DNA of 41,542 bases, taken from contig QMSP01000017.1 in assembly GCA_003650925.1 (NCBI GenBank), positions 1 to 41,542 on the forward strand, written 5' to 3'. The stretch is from Thermoprotei archaeon. Lineage in GTDB: Archaea > Thermoproteota > Thermoprotei > QMSL01. Below the pieces are notes generated by a model. The model had not been told where the DNA came from. It saw only the letters and a list, made by a program, of their open reading frames with translations, and made no database searches. The translations under genes were made by a program, and so were the position numbers. Below, piece by piece: positions 27,782 to 36,995 of the stretch (position 1 is its first letter; every line of letters starts with the position of its first letter).

Positions 27782-29755
27782 GTGAGAAAGATCTTTAGGA
27801 AACTGGTTGAGCTTGAAGAAGCACTTGATCTGCTCAAGAGTCTAGCTCATCATGTTAAATTAGATGTGATAGAGGTCCCCCTGGAGCAGGCTCTTAACAT
27901 GGTTCTTGCTGAAGATGTAGTCTGTATGGTTGACCTACCTCCATTCGATAGAGCAACCATGGATGGCTATGCTGTAAGGTATGAAGACATAGAGGGAGCT
28001 TCAGAGGAGAGCCCAAGGCCTCTCAAGATCATAGGCTCAATTGAAGCTGGAGAATGGCCTAGGAGAGAAGTAGAAAAAGGCACTGCCATGGAGATAAGCA
28101 CAGGTGCTCCTCTACCCTATGGAGCTGACACTGTGGTTCCAGTTGAGCTGTCACATAGAGATGAAGCCAAGAACTTAGTCTACATAACAAAAGCTCTTAG
28201 AAGGGGGGCTTATATCCAATACTCAGGCTCAGACCTTGCTAGAGGTGAGCTTCTCCTTCCCAAAGGCATCTTGTTAGGTCCAAGAGAGATAGCTTCATTG
28301 GCTCTTGCTGGAGTAAGAAAAGTCAAGGTGTACAGAAGGCCGGTAGTGGCAGTCATAACCATAGGCAGTGAGCTCAAGGAACCTGGAGAAAGACTTGAAC
28401 TAGGGCAGATATATGATGGAAATACATATGGAATAATCTCCTCGCTTAAGGAGTGGGGAGCTGAACCACTCTTTATGGGACTTATACCTGATGATGAGCT
28501 AATCCTTGAAGATCTCTTGAGAGAAGCTATCTCCAGGGCTGATGTAGTGTTAACAAGTGGTGGTACTTCAGCGGGTGCTGGCGATGTAACGTATAGAGTA
28601 GTAGAGCGTCTAGGCAAGCTCTACATTCATGGAATAAATGTAAAGCCTGGAAAGCCAACACTGATAGGCGAAATAGGAGGAAAGACCATAATAGGCCTTC
28701 CTGGCTATCCAATGTCATGTCTTGTCATGCTACATCTCCTTGTCAGGCCATTCATAGACTGGATACGAGGAGTTAAAAGCCCTCCATCAGAAGTAAGCGT
28801 GGAAGCCAAGCTTGCAACTAGACTTCACCTTGATGGTAGAAGGTCATTTATCCCCGTCATGTTATCAATTGATAAGGGGCTGTATCTGGCTTATCCTCTA
28901 AGAACTGAGAGCGCTGCCTTTTCATCGCTTCTTCACGCTGATGGCTTCATAGATATTCCAGCGGGTACTATACTGGTCAAAGAAGGATCTATGGTCAAAG
29001 TGAAGTTGATAGCTCCACTTAGAGTTCATGATCTGGTGTTTATAGGTAGCCATGACATCGTAGTCATGGAGATTACGAGAAGGCTCAGAGACTTGGCTGT
29101 GCTCAGCGTAAGGGAGATCTTCATGGGCTCCATGACTGGTCTTCATGCGATATCCTGTAGAGCCTGTGATGTTGCTGGTGTACATATGCTCGACCCTAAC
29201 ACTATGGAGTATAACACGCCCATACTGAAGCGGCTTAAGGTAAAGAACGTTTTGGTCATTAGAGGCTTTATTAGGGAGCAAGGCCTGTTGGTGAGGAAAG
29301 GCAATCCCAAGGGGATTAGAGGCGTGGAGGATCTCCTAAGAGGTGATGTTCGATTTGTGAATAGGAATAAAGGGTCAGGAACTAGAGCTCTATTGGACTA
29401 TTTCCTCAATAAACTAGCTGAGAGAGAAGGCCTAAGCTTTCAAGAGGTTGTACGGAGGATTAGAGGATATGAGCATGAAGTACGCACTCATAGTGCAATT
29501 GCGTTGATGATCATCAGGGGAATGGCTGATACTGGCCTAGCCATAAAACCTATAGCTGACATATATGGTCTAGATTTCATACCTCTAGCGGAGGAGATGT
29601 ATGACTTCCTAGTGCTCAAGGATAGACTTGACAAGCCCTCAGTTCGAGCCTTTCTCGACATGCTGAGAGATAAAGAGTTTCAGAGGGAGATCATATCAAG
29701 GTATAGAGGCATAAAGTTCCTACCAGAGACGGGAGAGGTTGTGTATGAGGCCTGA
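27782..29755 (+). CDS. MoeA fused to a periplasmic-binding-protein-like domain
   Basis: Residues 1-400 of 657 form a complete MoeA (FDRATMDGYAVRYED, ISTGAPLPYGADTVVP, VVLTSGGTSAGAGDVTY, KTIIGLPGYPMSC). From about 420 comes a type-2 binding-protein-like domain (IGSHDIVVMEITRRL, FVNRNKGSGTRALLDYFL, THSAIALMIIRGMADTGLAI), as in known MoeA-LysR-substrate-binding fusions and related to molybdate-binding proteins. There is no signal peptide, so the domain acts in the cytosol, perhaps to sense or deliver oxyanion. GTG start with a TATA box 28 nt upstream. The end overlaps the moaB start by 11 nt, so the two are co-expressed. Confidence 0.9.
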   Translation: MRKIFRKLVELEEALDLLKSLAHHVKLDVIEVPLEQALNMVLAEDVVCMVDLPPFDRATMDGYAVRYEDIEGASEESPRPLKIIGSIEAGEWPRREVEKGTAMEISTGAPLPYGADTVVPVELSHRDEAKNLVYITKALRRGAYIQYSGSDLARGELLLPKGILLGPREIASLALAGVRKVKVYRRPVVAVITIGSELKEPGERLELGQIYDGNTYGIISSLKEWGAEPLFMGLIPDDELILEDLLREAISRADVVLTSGGTSAGAGDVTYRVVERLGKLYIHGINVKPGKPTLIGEIGGKTIIGLPGYPMSCLVMLHLLVRPFIDWIRGVKSPPSEVSVEAKLATRLHLDGRRSFIPVMLSIDKGLYLAYPLRTESAAFSSLLHADGFIDIPAGTILVKEGSMVKVKLIAPLRVHDLVFIGSHDIVVMEITRRLRDLAVLSVREIFMGSMTGLHAISCRACDVAGVHMLDPNTMEYNTPILKRLKVKNVLVIRGFIREQGLLVRKGNPKGIRGVEDLLRGDVRFVNRNKGSGTRALLDYFLNKLAEREGLSFQEVVRRIRGYEHEVRTHSAIALMIIRGMADTGLAIKPIADIYGLDFIPLAEEMYDFLVLKDRLDKPSVRAFLDMLRDKEFQREIISRYRGIKFLPETGEVVYEA

Positions 29756-31645: not shown

Positions 31646-32512
31646 CTAGAGAACTTCTCTCATGTACTCGATCTCGGTGTAAGGATATAATCCTCTCTTG
31701 TCCTTCTCATAGGGTTTAACCATGTCCCATACATTGAGGAGTAGGCTGCCTAGCGATATGAGAGCAGCAATTATCACATCACCTCTTCCACGTCCTTGTA
31801 CCATGACTCTAGCTCTCACTCCACGCTTCTTCAGCTCCAAGTAGGGCTCTACATGGTGCACAGTTATGTCAACAATGAAGGGCACTAGGTCATCCGCTTG
31901 CTTAGCCATGTATACTGCGACAGCTCTACTAACCTTTACGACATCCCCTTTTTCAACAGCACCCTTTGCTATAAGCTCAAGCGTAGCTGGCTTGAGCCTT
32001 ATGAAGCCCTCTACAATGCTCTGCCTCTCCTCAGGCTTCCTTGGACTCAAGTTCAACACTGGTATACTAACTTCATTTAGCCCACTGCGAGTGGCCTTTT
32101 CCTCACTAATACCTTTCTTCTTTGCGACAACTCTTATCCCCTTAATCATAATGCTAGCTCTCGTAGTCATTTTGAGATAGGCCCAGGAGGCTATTAGACC
32201 CATTAGAGTACCGAATAGCACGTCCATCTCCACTCCTGTCTTGGCTACTGTCTTAGCTGTCGTCATGAGCTTTAATACGTTGTCATCAATTTTCTGATAC
32301 TCGGTCTTGATGTGGGTTATGGCTATTGGATGCAGAAATGGCATGTAACGCCAAGCAAGCTTAGTAGTCATAATGGCAGTGAACCTCCCAAGGCTTAATG
32401 CTGCATCAAGTATCTTCCTCTCCTTGATATCCTCGAATACCAAACATCCCTCAGCTATAGCCATTCTTGGGATGTCCTCCTTACCGCTTATATCAACCAT
32501 CTTCATCTCCAA
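31646..32512 (-). CDS. moaC: tandem-duplicated MoaC with divergent halves
   Basis: A 288-residue protein made of two MoaC domains (about 1-135 and 165-288). MoaC turns 3',8-cyclo-dihydro-GTP into cyclic pyranopterin monophosphate. Known E. coli catalytic positions map as follows. Domain 1 keeps His77 (H61 in FLHPI), Glu112 (E95 in TGVEMD), Glu114 as Asp97 and Lys131 (K114), but lacks the KGD Lys51 and replaces Asp128 with A111. Domain 2 keeps KGD (188-190) and WDMVK (D263, K266) plus the archaeal YPYTEIE tail, but has V214 for His77 and I247/A249 for the two acids. It overlaps moaA by 10 nt. The complementary loss suggests a fused pseudo-dimer with a composite site (inferred). Confidence 0.82.
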   Translation of the reverse strand: MEMKMVDISGKEDIPRMAIAEGCLVFEDIKERKILDAALSLGRFTAIMTTKLAWRYMPFLHPIAITHIKTEYQKIDDNVLKLMTTAKTVAKTGVEMDVLFGTLMGLIASWAYLKMTTRASIMIKGIRVVAKKKGISEEKATRSGLNEVSIPVLNLSPRKPEERQSIVEGFIRLKPATLELIAKGAVEKGDVVKVSRAVAVYMAKQADDLVPFIVDITVHHVEPYLELKKRGVRARVMVQGRGRGDVIIAALISLGSLLLNVWDMVKPYEKDKRGLYPYTEIEYMREVL

Positions 32513-33420
32513 AATGGCACCCTCCTCAGATTAGCTAGCTCAATAGCTTTAGTCAGCTCCTTATAGTCTCTCTTCCCTACGATCTCAGCTATGTCAACGA
32601 CATTATCATTCCTCATCAGACATGGCTTGAGCTTGAGATCAGGGGTGAGCCTCATGGTGGTGCATGCCTTGCAGAAGTATGGGTTGTGAGTTGGGCTAAC
32701 GACCTCTACCACGGCTCCATCTACTTCATATAAAGGCCTTAAGTTCATATCCCTTCTATACCTCAGTATCTTTCCTTGAGAGTTTATGTAATTGATTATA
32801 GTAGTCAAGTCATCGTGTAATCTCTCATAGTTCAACATCGCCATGCCAAGTGGCTGTAGCTCTATGATTCTGAGGACTACTCCTCTGTCTCTAGCTAGAT
32901 TGATGAAGTCCTTATACTCATCATCATTAAGTCCCTTTAAAACAACATAGTTCACCTTGACCTCTAGGCCTAGGTCTACTGCAAGGTCAAGTCCTTTTAA
33001 TACCTCGCTAAGATAGTCAAAGCCTGTTATTGCCTTGTATCTTGAAGCCTTCAATGAAGGTATCGAAACTGCCAAGGTATCAAGCCCCCTCTTTGCTAAA
33101 GTCTCTACATGCTGAGGTAGTCTGAATCCATTTGTAGTCATGGAAATATGCTCAAAACCCATGTCCTTGAGATGCTCAACTATGTCACTGATATCTTCCC
33201 TCTCAAGGGGCTCCCCGCCTGTCAACTTTACTCTCCTAACTTCATGCTCAAGGAAGGCCTTAGCTATGAAGACTAAGTCGTCAAGTCTAGGCTCAGATGA
33301 TGGGCTGAGGCTTCCCTCTCTGTGACAGAATAGACACTTATATCTACACTTTGTCGTCACGCTGATGCGCAGCCTTCTCAATGGTCTTCCAAAGGTGTCA
33401 ATGAGCACCGAAATTCCCAT
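32503..33420 (-). CDS. moaA: GTP 3',8-cyclase MoaA
   Basis: The 305-residue radical SAM protein has the N-terminal cluster motif CRYKCLFC (cysteines 25, 29, 32), the KLTGGEPL motif, and the C-terminal cluster cysteines in YFCKACTTMRLT and KPCL. It makes 3',8-cyclo-dihydro-GTP from GTP, the substrate of MoaC encoded by the overlapping next gene. I chose the ATG at 33420 because a TATA box is centred 27 nt before it, indicating a leaderless message; the GTG at 33438 is too close to that box. The end (LRRVPFWR) lacks the Gly-Gly seen in E. coli MoaA. Confidence 0.92.
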   Translation of the reverse strand: MGISVLIDTFGRPLRRLRISVTTKCRYKCLFCHREGSLSPSSEPRLDDLVFIAKAFLEHEVRRVKLTGGEPLEREDISDIVEHLKDMGFEHISMTTNGFRLPQHVETLAKRGLDTLAVSIPSLKASRYKAITGFDYLSEVLKGLDLAVDLGLEVKVNYVVLKGLNDDEYKDFINLARDRGVVLRIIELQPLGMAMLNYERLHDDLTTIINYINSQGKILRYRRDMNLRPLYEVDGAVVEVVSPTHNPYFCKACTTMRLTPDLKLKPCLMRNDNVVDIAEIVGKRDYKELTKAIELANLRRVPFWR

Positions 33421-33442
33421 CTGTACATATCGCCCCACTTGA

Positions 33443-34406: not shown

Positions 34407-36995
34407 TCATGAGCTTCCCTTTCCAGTGCTCTTGAGCACTTGTATTTCATAGATTACAACTGGCCACTCATGATTATAGTCTGACTCAAGCTTTATGTAT
34501 CTCACCTCATCTGCGTCTAACTTAACCTCTGCATATGGCTCATCTATGATACTCACCAGCTTCCAGTTCTCGCCATCAACTGATGTCAACAGCTTTGCTC
34601 TTATGAAGTGTAGATCCATGTCTTGAAATATCCTCACAAGCTCAATATTGCTCTCTGTTCCTAGGTCTATGAGTATCCAGTCTCCTCTTCTAGGCCCTTC
34701 TCTGCTCCTGAAGGCAGTCAATAGCATGCCATCAACTATATTCTCAATATAATATCCGTATTCTGGAGCCATGTTGGTACTAACCTCTAGAATCGTTCCA
34801 CTCAGTACTTTAAACTCTCTCAGAGATGCTTTGACAGGTTTAACGCCCTTGTAAAGTAGCCTTAGGTATCTACACTCCGTATTGAGACCTCTTACCTCAA
34901 CTTGCCCACTCTTGACTTCATATACCGTCTCCCATCGTCTACCATCTTTGCTTATCTGCAAGTCGCATGGGACTAAGAACCTATGAGGCTCCATGTAGTC
35001 CATTTGCACTATTCTTACACCATCTATCTTGTTTATCTTTAACATGTCGAGCTCTATGTAATCCCCATTTCTCAGGGGGAACTCCGTTCTAAAGCATGTG
35101 GTCAGATTCCCATCAACCATCATCAAGGGAGAGTGCTCATCCTCGTGGTGAGTTATCCTACAGAAGGGCCTGGCTATGACATCTGGCCAATTAAATCTTT
35201 CACACGTGAATTCAATGACGCTCCAGAGGAAGTAATCGACATAGTCATCTTGGCTAGTCATGACCCACTCTGCCTCCTTGAATAGAGGTACGTGTCCCAC
35301 TGCATGAGCAGTTCTCTCAGCCTCCTTCATGAGTTTCCATAGGCTACAGAGAAGCTCCCATGCCTTTTCAGCCTCTTTCACTTCAAGAAGGTCTAAGGCT
35401 GTTAGAATGGCTTTGCCGTATACCTTGACCTTCCTTAGATAGGGTTCTATATCGTGCTTAAATCCTTCCTCTACTATGAGTTCCTCCAGCTTCCTCTTGC
35501 AGATGACCATGTCCTGAGCTAGAAGCCTAATGCTCCTCACTAAGCCCTCTATATCTTCATTTCTCCTAGCTCTGGAAATAACCTCCTTGAGGTAGTCAGC
35601 TATCTTAGGCCGTCTAGGCCATATAGTTGACCATCCTGTGAGGTCAGCTAACATCATGAGATACTTGACTCCCTCCTCCTCTACGACAAGCTTTAGAGCT
35701 CTTCTCCACGACTTCTCAGGATCATAAGCTTCTGGATTCCATGTGTAGTCAGCTATGGTGGCTATTGCAATGATAGAGGCGTAGGCCTCATTCATGGGAT
35801 TTGATAACAGACCTTCAACTTCCTCGTGTAAAGTTCTTTCTCTATTCCTTACTGGACCTAAGTTGATCCAGTTTCTAGCATAGTCGTTAACAGGGTAGTT
35901 GTCCCATATCAAGGGCTTTCTGCCTATTAGCTTAGCATATAAGCGAGCTTGCTCTCTATTTATCTCCACAGAGCATACTGTAGGGCCAGTCCAGAAGACC
36001 AAGATCTCCTTTTCCAAACTTTCTCTTAAATCCTTGAGATAAGTGCTCTCTCTAGCTCCGAAATACTCAGTAGGGCACATTATCAAGGTGCAGTCGGGAT
36101 ATTTCTCCTTGAGGTATTTGTATACCTCATTAAGGAAGTAGGCTTGTGCCTCTCCTAGGCTTTTGAACCTCTTTTTGTCCTCCTCGTGCACTAGGAATGG
36201 AGGTATGTCGTCAAAGAACACTGCAAACCATCTTACACCAACTTTTGCGAATTCATCAAGCTTTTTACATAAGGCGTGAAGGTCTTCTTCGCTGCTATAC
36301 TTCACTGTAAGCCCAGGGCTTATGGCTATTACAAACTCTACTCCATGATCTCTAGCTCTTGTAACGAGTTGCCTGAACTTTTCCATGGTTTCTTTATCGT
36401 ACCCTTCTCTCCATTTAGCCCTATGATAAGGATCCTCCTTAGGAGCATAGATATACAAGTTCATCTTCAAGTTACCCATGATCTCAATAATTCGCATTCG
36501 TTCCTCAAAGCTCCATGGTCTGAAGTAGAAGCCCTCGACAATGCCTCTCAGCTTAAATGAGGGCCAGTCCTTTATGATGCACTTGCATATGCGAACCCCT
36601 TCCTCATCACTCTTCAATAGTTGTCTTAAGGTTCTAGTGGCATAGAAGACTCCCTTAGCCGTTGCTGCTGCGCACAAGATAGTTACCCTATCCTTTACTT
36701 TATCAACCACTAGAACGTATCCCTCATCACCAAGAACTTTCCACTTGACTTCTACGCCTACATTTCTGAGCGTGTTCATAACTACTTCTTCGTCCTTAAA
36801 GCCCATTATAAGAACAGCTTCTTCGCTCTCTCCGGCCCTCAGACTATAGACATACTTAAGTTCTTCGACAACCCTAGCGGCAAGGGCCTCTAGCTCCTTG
36901 GGCTCAGCTATAACTCTCAGTCCCTTGATGAGATACTCCTCATCAAATACCTCGATCTCCTTGGGCATAGGTATTAATTCCACAGGAGTCCCCAT
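34407..36995 (-). CDS. GH84-family beta-N-acetylhexosaminidase-like protein with two discoidin domains
   Basis: Residues 1-140 of 862 form the N-terminal domain common to GH84/GH20 enzymes. The barrel begins at KLRGIVEGFYFRPWS (148-162) and holds NLYIYAPKEDPYHRAKWREGY and the paired catalytic Asp262-Asp263 (AVFFDDIPPF) needed for substrate-assisted cleavage of beta-linked GlcNAc. A helical region (420-600) follows, then two F5/8-type-C-like domains (about 640-745 and 755-855), usual for sugar binding. No signal peptide is visible, so it would act inside the cell or be exported in another way. It lies 7 nt after an MFS gene, implying a shared operon. It could remove GlcNAc from imported glycans or from proteins. 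Confidence 0.82.
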   Translation of the reverse strand: MGTPVELIPMPKEIEVFDEEYLIKGLRVIAEPKELEALAARVVEELKYVYSLRAGESEEAVLIMGFKDEEVVMNTLRNVGVEVKWKVLGDEGYVLVVDKVKDRVTILCAAATAKGVFYATRTLRQLLKSDEEGVRICKCIIKDWPSFKLRGIVEGFYFRPWSFEERMRIIEIMGNLKMNLYIYAPKEDPYHRAKWREGYDKETMEKFRQLVTRARDHGVEFVIAISPGLTVKYSSEEDLHALCKKLDEFAKVGVRWFAVFFDDIPPFLVHEEDKKRFKSLGEAQAYFLNEVYKYLKEKYPDCTLIMCPTEYFGARESTYLKDLRESLEKEILVFWTGPTVCSVEINREQARLYAKLIGRKPLIWDNYPVNDYARNWINLGPVRNRERTLHEEVEGLLSNPMNEAYASIIAIATIADYTWNPEAYDPEKSWRRALKLVVEEEGVKYLMMLADLTGWSTIWPRRPKIADYLKEVISRARRNEDIEGLVRSIRLLAQDMVICKRKLEELIVEEGFKHDIEPYLRKVKVYGKAILTALDLLEVKEAEKAWELLCSLWKLMKEAERTAHAVGHVPLFKEAEWVMTSQDDYVDYFLWSVIEFTCERFNWPDVIARPFCRITHHEDEHSPLMMVDGNLTTCFRTEFPLRNGDYIELDMLKINKIDGVRIVQMDYMEPHRFLVPCDLQISKDGRRWETVYEVKSGQVEVRGLNTECRYLRLLYKGVKPVKASLREFKVLSGTILEVSTNMAPEYGYYIENIVDGMLLTAFRSREGPRRGDWILIDLGTESNIELVRIFQDMDLHFIRAKLLTSVDGENWKLVSIIDEPYAEVKLDADEVRYIKLESDYNHEWPVVIYEIQVLKSTGKGSS

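Follow-up and report, generated by a model that had tools for sequence, protein, structure and literature searches.

The window, i.e., the whole stretch of 41,542 nucleotides analysed here from a heat-loving Thermoprotei archaeon, carries on its minus strand a tandem moaC gene (31646..32512, stop included) for a putative cyclic pyranopterin monophosphate (cPMP) synthase, the enzyme that converts 3',8-cH2GTP to cPMP as step two in making the molybdenum/tungsten cofactor. The open reading frame runs from 32512 to 31646 as 288 codons without an internal stop, and the product is 288 aa long from a TTG at 32512 or 286 aa from an ATG at 32506; a GGAGG at 32525-32521 is spaced to fit the TTG better. 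Immediately upstream, on the same strand and overlapping it, lies moaA (radical SAM GTP 3',8-cyclase; 32503..33438), the product of which has radical SAM and Mob_synth_C domains. An earlier note on this DNA, made from the sequence alone, had given the overlap as 10 nt, which holds if translation of moaC starts at TTG 32512 but shrinks to 4 nt (ATGA) with ATG 32506.

The MoaC profile PF01967 was matched twice in this frame, with both halves above the Pfam cut-off, and NCBIfam PRK12343 was also above its cut-off, while TIGR00581 fell slightly below (135.6 vs 141.5). All on the minus strand, domain 1 (aa 1-137) occupies 32102..32512 and domain 2 (aa 151-288) occupies 31649..32062, with a short linker of approximately aa 138-150 (32063..32101) between them.

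The host genome (2.14 Mb, 98.6% complete) was searched as a whole with the profile, a check the earlier note had proposed, and just these two MoaC domains were found, both in the tandem frame; the second normal moaC that formed one part of the note's condition for refutation is therefore absent. Elsewhere in the genome there are matches to MoaE and two to AFOR_C (aldehyde:ferredoxin oxidoreductase, tungsten-type). A fusion of MoeA with a PBP-like domain lies in the window at 27782-29755 (plus strand, opposite to moaA-moaC), beside a MoaB-like gene. Given MoaE, the two AFOR_C matches and the MoeA and MoaB-like genes, the molybdenum/tungsten cofactor is both made and used in this host. The window also holds, at 34407-36995 (minus strand), a gene for an archaeal NAGidase (beta-N-acetylglucosaminidase, PF07555) of 862 aa, in which a GH20 domain 2 and two stretches of F5/8 type C are also present.

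Division of the catalytic residues between two domains

Residues are numbered as in E. coli MoaC, and the reference alignment comprised the E. coli protein and 27 single-domain MoaC proteins of archaea. HMMER alignment to the solved E. coli chain 1eks gives identical motifs and numbers to those of the E. coli ruler sequence. The retention pattern described in the earlier note was reproduced for each domain by this alignment. Domain 1 keeps H61-P62 and T92-G93-V94-E95-M96-D97, so that His77 and Glu112 are present as H61 and E95 and position 114 is occupied by D97, and it has L41 at Lys51 and A111 at Asp128. Domain 2 keeps K188-G189-D190, W262-D263-M264 and K266, with V214, I247 and A249 at His77, Glu112 and Glu114, respectively. 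Furthermore, domain 1 retains Lys147 (K131), a position that domain 2 stops short of. The complementary loss proposed for the two halves therefore stands for Lys51, His77, Glu112 and Asp128, but it is not perfect, since domain 1 still has an equivalent of Lys131 (K114). When the halves are pooled, Lys51, His77, Glu112, Asp128, Lys131 and Lys147 are all present in the chain; the complete set is in neither domain, and the protein is therefore a variant rather than a standard MoaC. The two domains share 19% identity, and they are 37% (domain 1) and 34% (domain 2) identical to the single MoaC of the sister family.

MoaC is a hexamer with its active site at a subunit interface (PMC3602415). In a superposition of M. 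tuberculosis MoaC2 on T. thermophilus MoaC with its GTP, the nucleotide is bound by Lys62, Asp137 and Lys140 of chain A and by His88 of chain B (PMC3602415). When the window protein is aligned to MoaC2 (4fdf) with HMMER, K188, D263 and K266 of domain 2 fall at 62, 137 and 140, and H61 of domain 1 at 88, with no gaps. Since the former map to the chain-A contacts and the latter to the chain-B contact, the two domains have kept opposite sides of the interface. We found a published chain assignment for these four residues only, and Glu112 and Lys147 were placed by inference: as they remain with His77, they are predicted to act from the chain-B side, and would thus belong to the His77 side of the site. 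A structure predicted with AlphaFold for the window protein together with four related proteins, from five alignment rows, none of them covering domain 1, folded domain 2 well and left domain 1 mostly at pLDDT < 50, because every row aligns to domain 2. With domain 1 lacking homologues in the fold prediction, the pocket geometry considered here is that of the published MoaC structures.

Relatives and history of the tandem protein

A survey of 81 genomes of the class found the tandem form in the family of the window (f1) and in two others (f3 and f7), while the sister family (f2) and the remaining families that gave a match carry a single, ordinary MoaC domain. From f3 and f7, 39 further tandem loci were retrieved, giving, with that of the window, 40 loci across three families. 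Among the further genomes bearing the tandem form are those we take to be Pyrobaculum aerophilum, P. calidifontis, P. islandicum, Thermoproteus tenax and Caldivirga maquilingensis. The complete genome of Vulcanisaeta distributa (PMC3035369) is also a carrier.

The division of residues recurs throughout these relatives. His77, Pro78, Thr109, Gly110, Glu112 and Met113 are invariant in all 40 first domains, in which position 76 is always Leu and position 114 always Asp, and neither Lys51 nor Asp128 is present in any of them. Lys51, Gly52, Lys67, Trp127, Asp128 and Lys131 are invariant in the 38 second domains, none of which has Glu112. Across the 38 loci where both halves could be paired, Lys51 and Asp128 are exclusive to domain 2 and Glu112 to domain 1 without exception, and Lys147 is exclusive to domain 1 wherever it could be aligned (31 of the paired loci). 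His77 is in domain 1 of all 38 and also in domain 2 of 16, all from one family: most of f7, the Vulcanisaeta/Caldivirga-type proteins, keep a His at 77 of domain 2, never Glu112. In f3, the loop of domain 1 expected to bear Asp128 has been deleted. No paired protein lacks Lys51, His77, Glu112, Asp128 or Lys131 from both halves at once; at the other positions conserved in single MoaC, both halves lack the residue in 146 of 912 cells (16%). All 28 single MoaC proteins retain every catalytic residue. The split is not attributable to chance, because it is the same in 40 first and 38 second domains, against 28 single proteins without any loss. The second acid, at position 114, is an exception: the window protein does have Asp in domain 1 and Ala in domain 2, as had been noted, but 35 of the 38 second domains have Glu there, and a split at this position is absent from the family at large.

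Several loci are unusual in other respects. In one genus of f7 (g28; loci L048, L049 and L050), the tandem MoaC is evolving very fast and the motif region of domain 2 has been rewritten, with the split unchanged. At locus L055 (2216-2955, minus strand) of genome G033, presumably Thermoproteus tenax, the tandem moaC is divided between two frames that overlap close to where domain 2 begins, which may reflect a sequencing error, a real frameshift or recoding. MoaC is fused to a MoaB-like domain in another family of the class (L018, 997-1908, and L020, 997-1929, both minus strand), with the MoaC catalytic residues that were checked being kept. A scan of 300 genomes of the phylum, judged on match counts and scores per genome, recognised no tandem form outside the class; two genomes with extra MoaC matches had them as separate genes or fragments.

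In a tree of 70 domains, all first domains cluster together (100/99), as do all second domains (94/79), and both clusters persist when the catalytic columns are left out (100/97 and 63/73). Such separate clades are the expected outcome of one fusion that preceded the divergence of the copies in f1, f3 and f7. On the tree without catalytic columns, the AU test did not reject a separate fusion event for the lineage of the window (p = 0.29 and 0.34). The first domains of the tandem proteins share Leu for Cys76, Asp for Glu114 and Phe-Gly at 117-118. In the moaA tree, the window gene groups with the Thermoproteaceae-type genes (94/95), and grouping with moaA of the sister family has an AU p of 0.06. 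On account of the shared domain 1 traits and the moaA tree, a single ancient fusion is the favoured history, and the grouping of moaA points to a possible common origin of the moaA-moaC locus, perhaps by transfer. Purifying selection acts on both halves: dN/dS among close relatives was 0.02-0.21 in each, wherever dS could be estimated, although these values are rough as many dS were near saturation.

A probable composite site and its alternatives

The earlier note had suggested that the fusion could build one composite site per chain, and this idea is supported by the sole copy in the genome, by the correspondence of the retained sets to the two sides of the interface and by the conservation of the split in relatives. 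The sole cPMP synthase of this archaeon is very probably a self-fused MoaC, in effect an asymmetric dimer whose chain has a single composite site and has lost the second one. Ordinary MoaC has a pair of equal interface sites formed by two identical subunits, one supplying Lys51, Asp128 and Lys131 to a given site and its partner supplying His77. Once the copies were fused, domain 1 would have become the His/Glu side and domain 2 the Lys/Asp/Lys side, and the pairing of the two would yield a single complete site. The second site, being redundant, would have decayed, e.g., by deletion of the Asp-Met-x-Lys segment in the Thermoproteaceae-type proteins. Besides the placing of Glu112 and Lys147, we infer in this model that the domains pair within the chain, that the protein is catalytically active, and that fused pseudo-dimers form a trimer in place of the hexamer. 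It is conceivable, though decidedly improbable, that the dismantled site has been reused, e.g., as a docking face from which MoaA passes its unstable intermediate to the one adjacent site, which would account for the asymmetry being kept throughout the group.

The composite site could also be formed across chains, domain 1 of one pairing with domain 2 of another, as the partner chain is not fixed by the sequence and the linker varies in length, from approximately 13 aa in the window protein to roughly 60 aa in the Vulcanisaeta-type. We regard such swapping as unlikely, since a covalently attached domain is the partner at the highest local concentration, and the domains of bimodular QueF pair within the chain (PMC5372742). 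A decaying or purely structural half next to a half that is active alone would agree with the strong divergence of either half from single MoaC, of which the 19% identity between the window domains is a measure. However, residues invariant in the 28 single MoaC proteins are incomplete in each half, those retained are invariant half by half and dN/dS is far below 1 in both, making this explanation very improbable.

An equally improbable reading is that the tandem protein no longer makes cPMP, has another role, and leaves cPMP to an enzyme as yet unknown. A literature search yielded no activity measurement for any tandem MoaC, which leaves room for such a role; against it stand the complete catalytic set of the pooled halves, the neighbouring moaA in the window and in Thermoproteus-type loci, and the lack of a second MoaC in a genome with MoaE and AOR. 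Least credible of all, to the point of being negligible, is an artefact of assembly or a frameshift. The Thermoproteus tenax (G033) record is indeed broken by a frameshift, and a survey of archaeal fusions proposes frameshifts as a possible source of MoaC fusions (PMC11237513), but the same tandem and the same split recur at 40 loci from three families, complete isolate genomes among them, and nearly all are single open frames.

Precedents and implications

Single-domain MoaC proteins of solved structure (Sulfolobus tokodaii, 2ohd; E. coli, 1ekr; M. tuberculosis MoaC2, 4fdf) belong to the same family, with the same motifs and a moaA neighbour, and presumably a like interface site. They differ in having all residues in one domain and forming a homohexamer, whereas tandem MoaC has two unequal halves per chain. 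A good precedent for the split is bimodular QueF (V. cholerae, E. coli), in which a small domain has likewise been doubled and the catalytic elements divided: its motif and its catalytic Cys/Glu are carried by separate tandem domains and come together in one site between them (PMC5372742). QueF is, however, an unrelated family (T-fold) catalysing another reaction. Tandem MoaC has the marks of a fused dimer in the manner of QueF, though not by kinship, namely complementary catalytic loss in tandem homologous domains that is conserved in relatives. A looser precedent is the monomeric herpesvirus dUTPase, also a product of duplication, whose single site performs what otherwise takes an oligomeric enzyme (PMC8961515); it differs in being an unrelated, trimer-derived enzyme with reordered motifs.

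MoaC-MoaC fusions have already been catalogued: the archaeal survey reports that they arose several times and suggests frameshifts, and its cluster 625.1 very probably includes proteins of the present kind (PMC11237513). Its accessible part reports the fusion alone, with no mention of residue loss or a shared site. Our literature search, which covered mainly papers open without subscription, found no description of a split site in these fusions, and prior notice elsewhere is possible.

With the tandem protein, nature has in effect experimented on an enzyme that is almost universal: evolution appears to have sorted the catalytic groups, one residue after another, by side of the MoaC interface. 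Beyond the predicted side of Glu112 and Lys147, it implies that one site per dimer is enough, and it offers a covalent system in which to study single-site MoaC mutants. These findings correct the idea that MoaC-MoaC fusions are probably frameshifts. By implication, the sole MoaC found in known hyperthermophiles, e.g., Pyrobaculum, would be a half-of-sites enzyme. Automatic annotation overlooks part of the tandem arrangement in Pyrobaculum-type genomes, where the Pfam model detects just one of the two MoaC domains.
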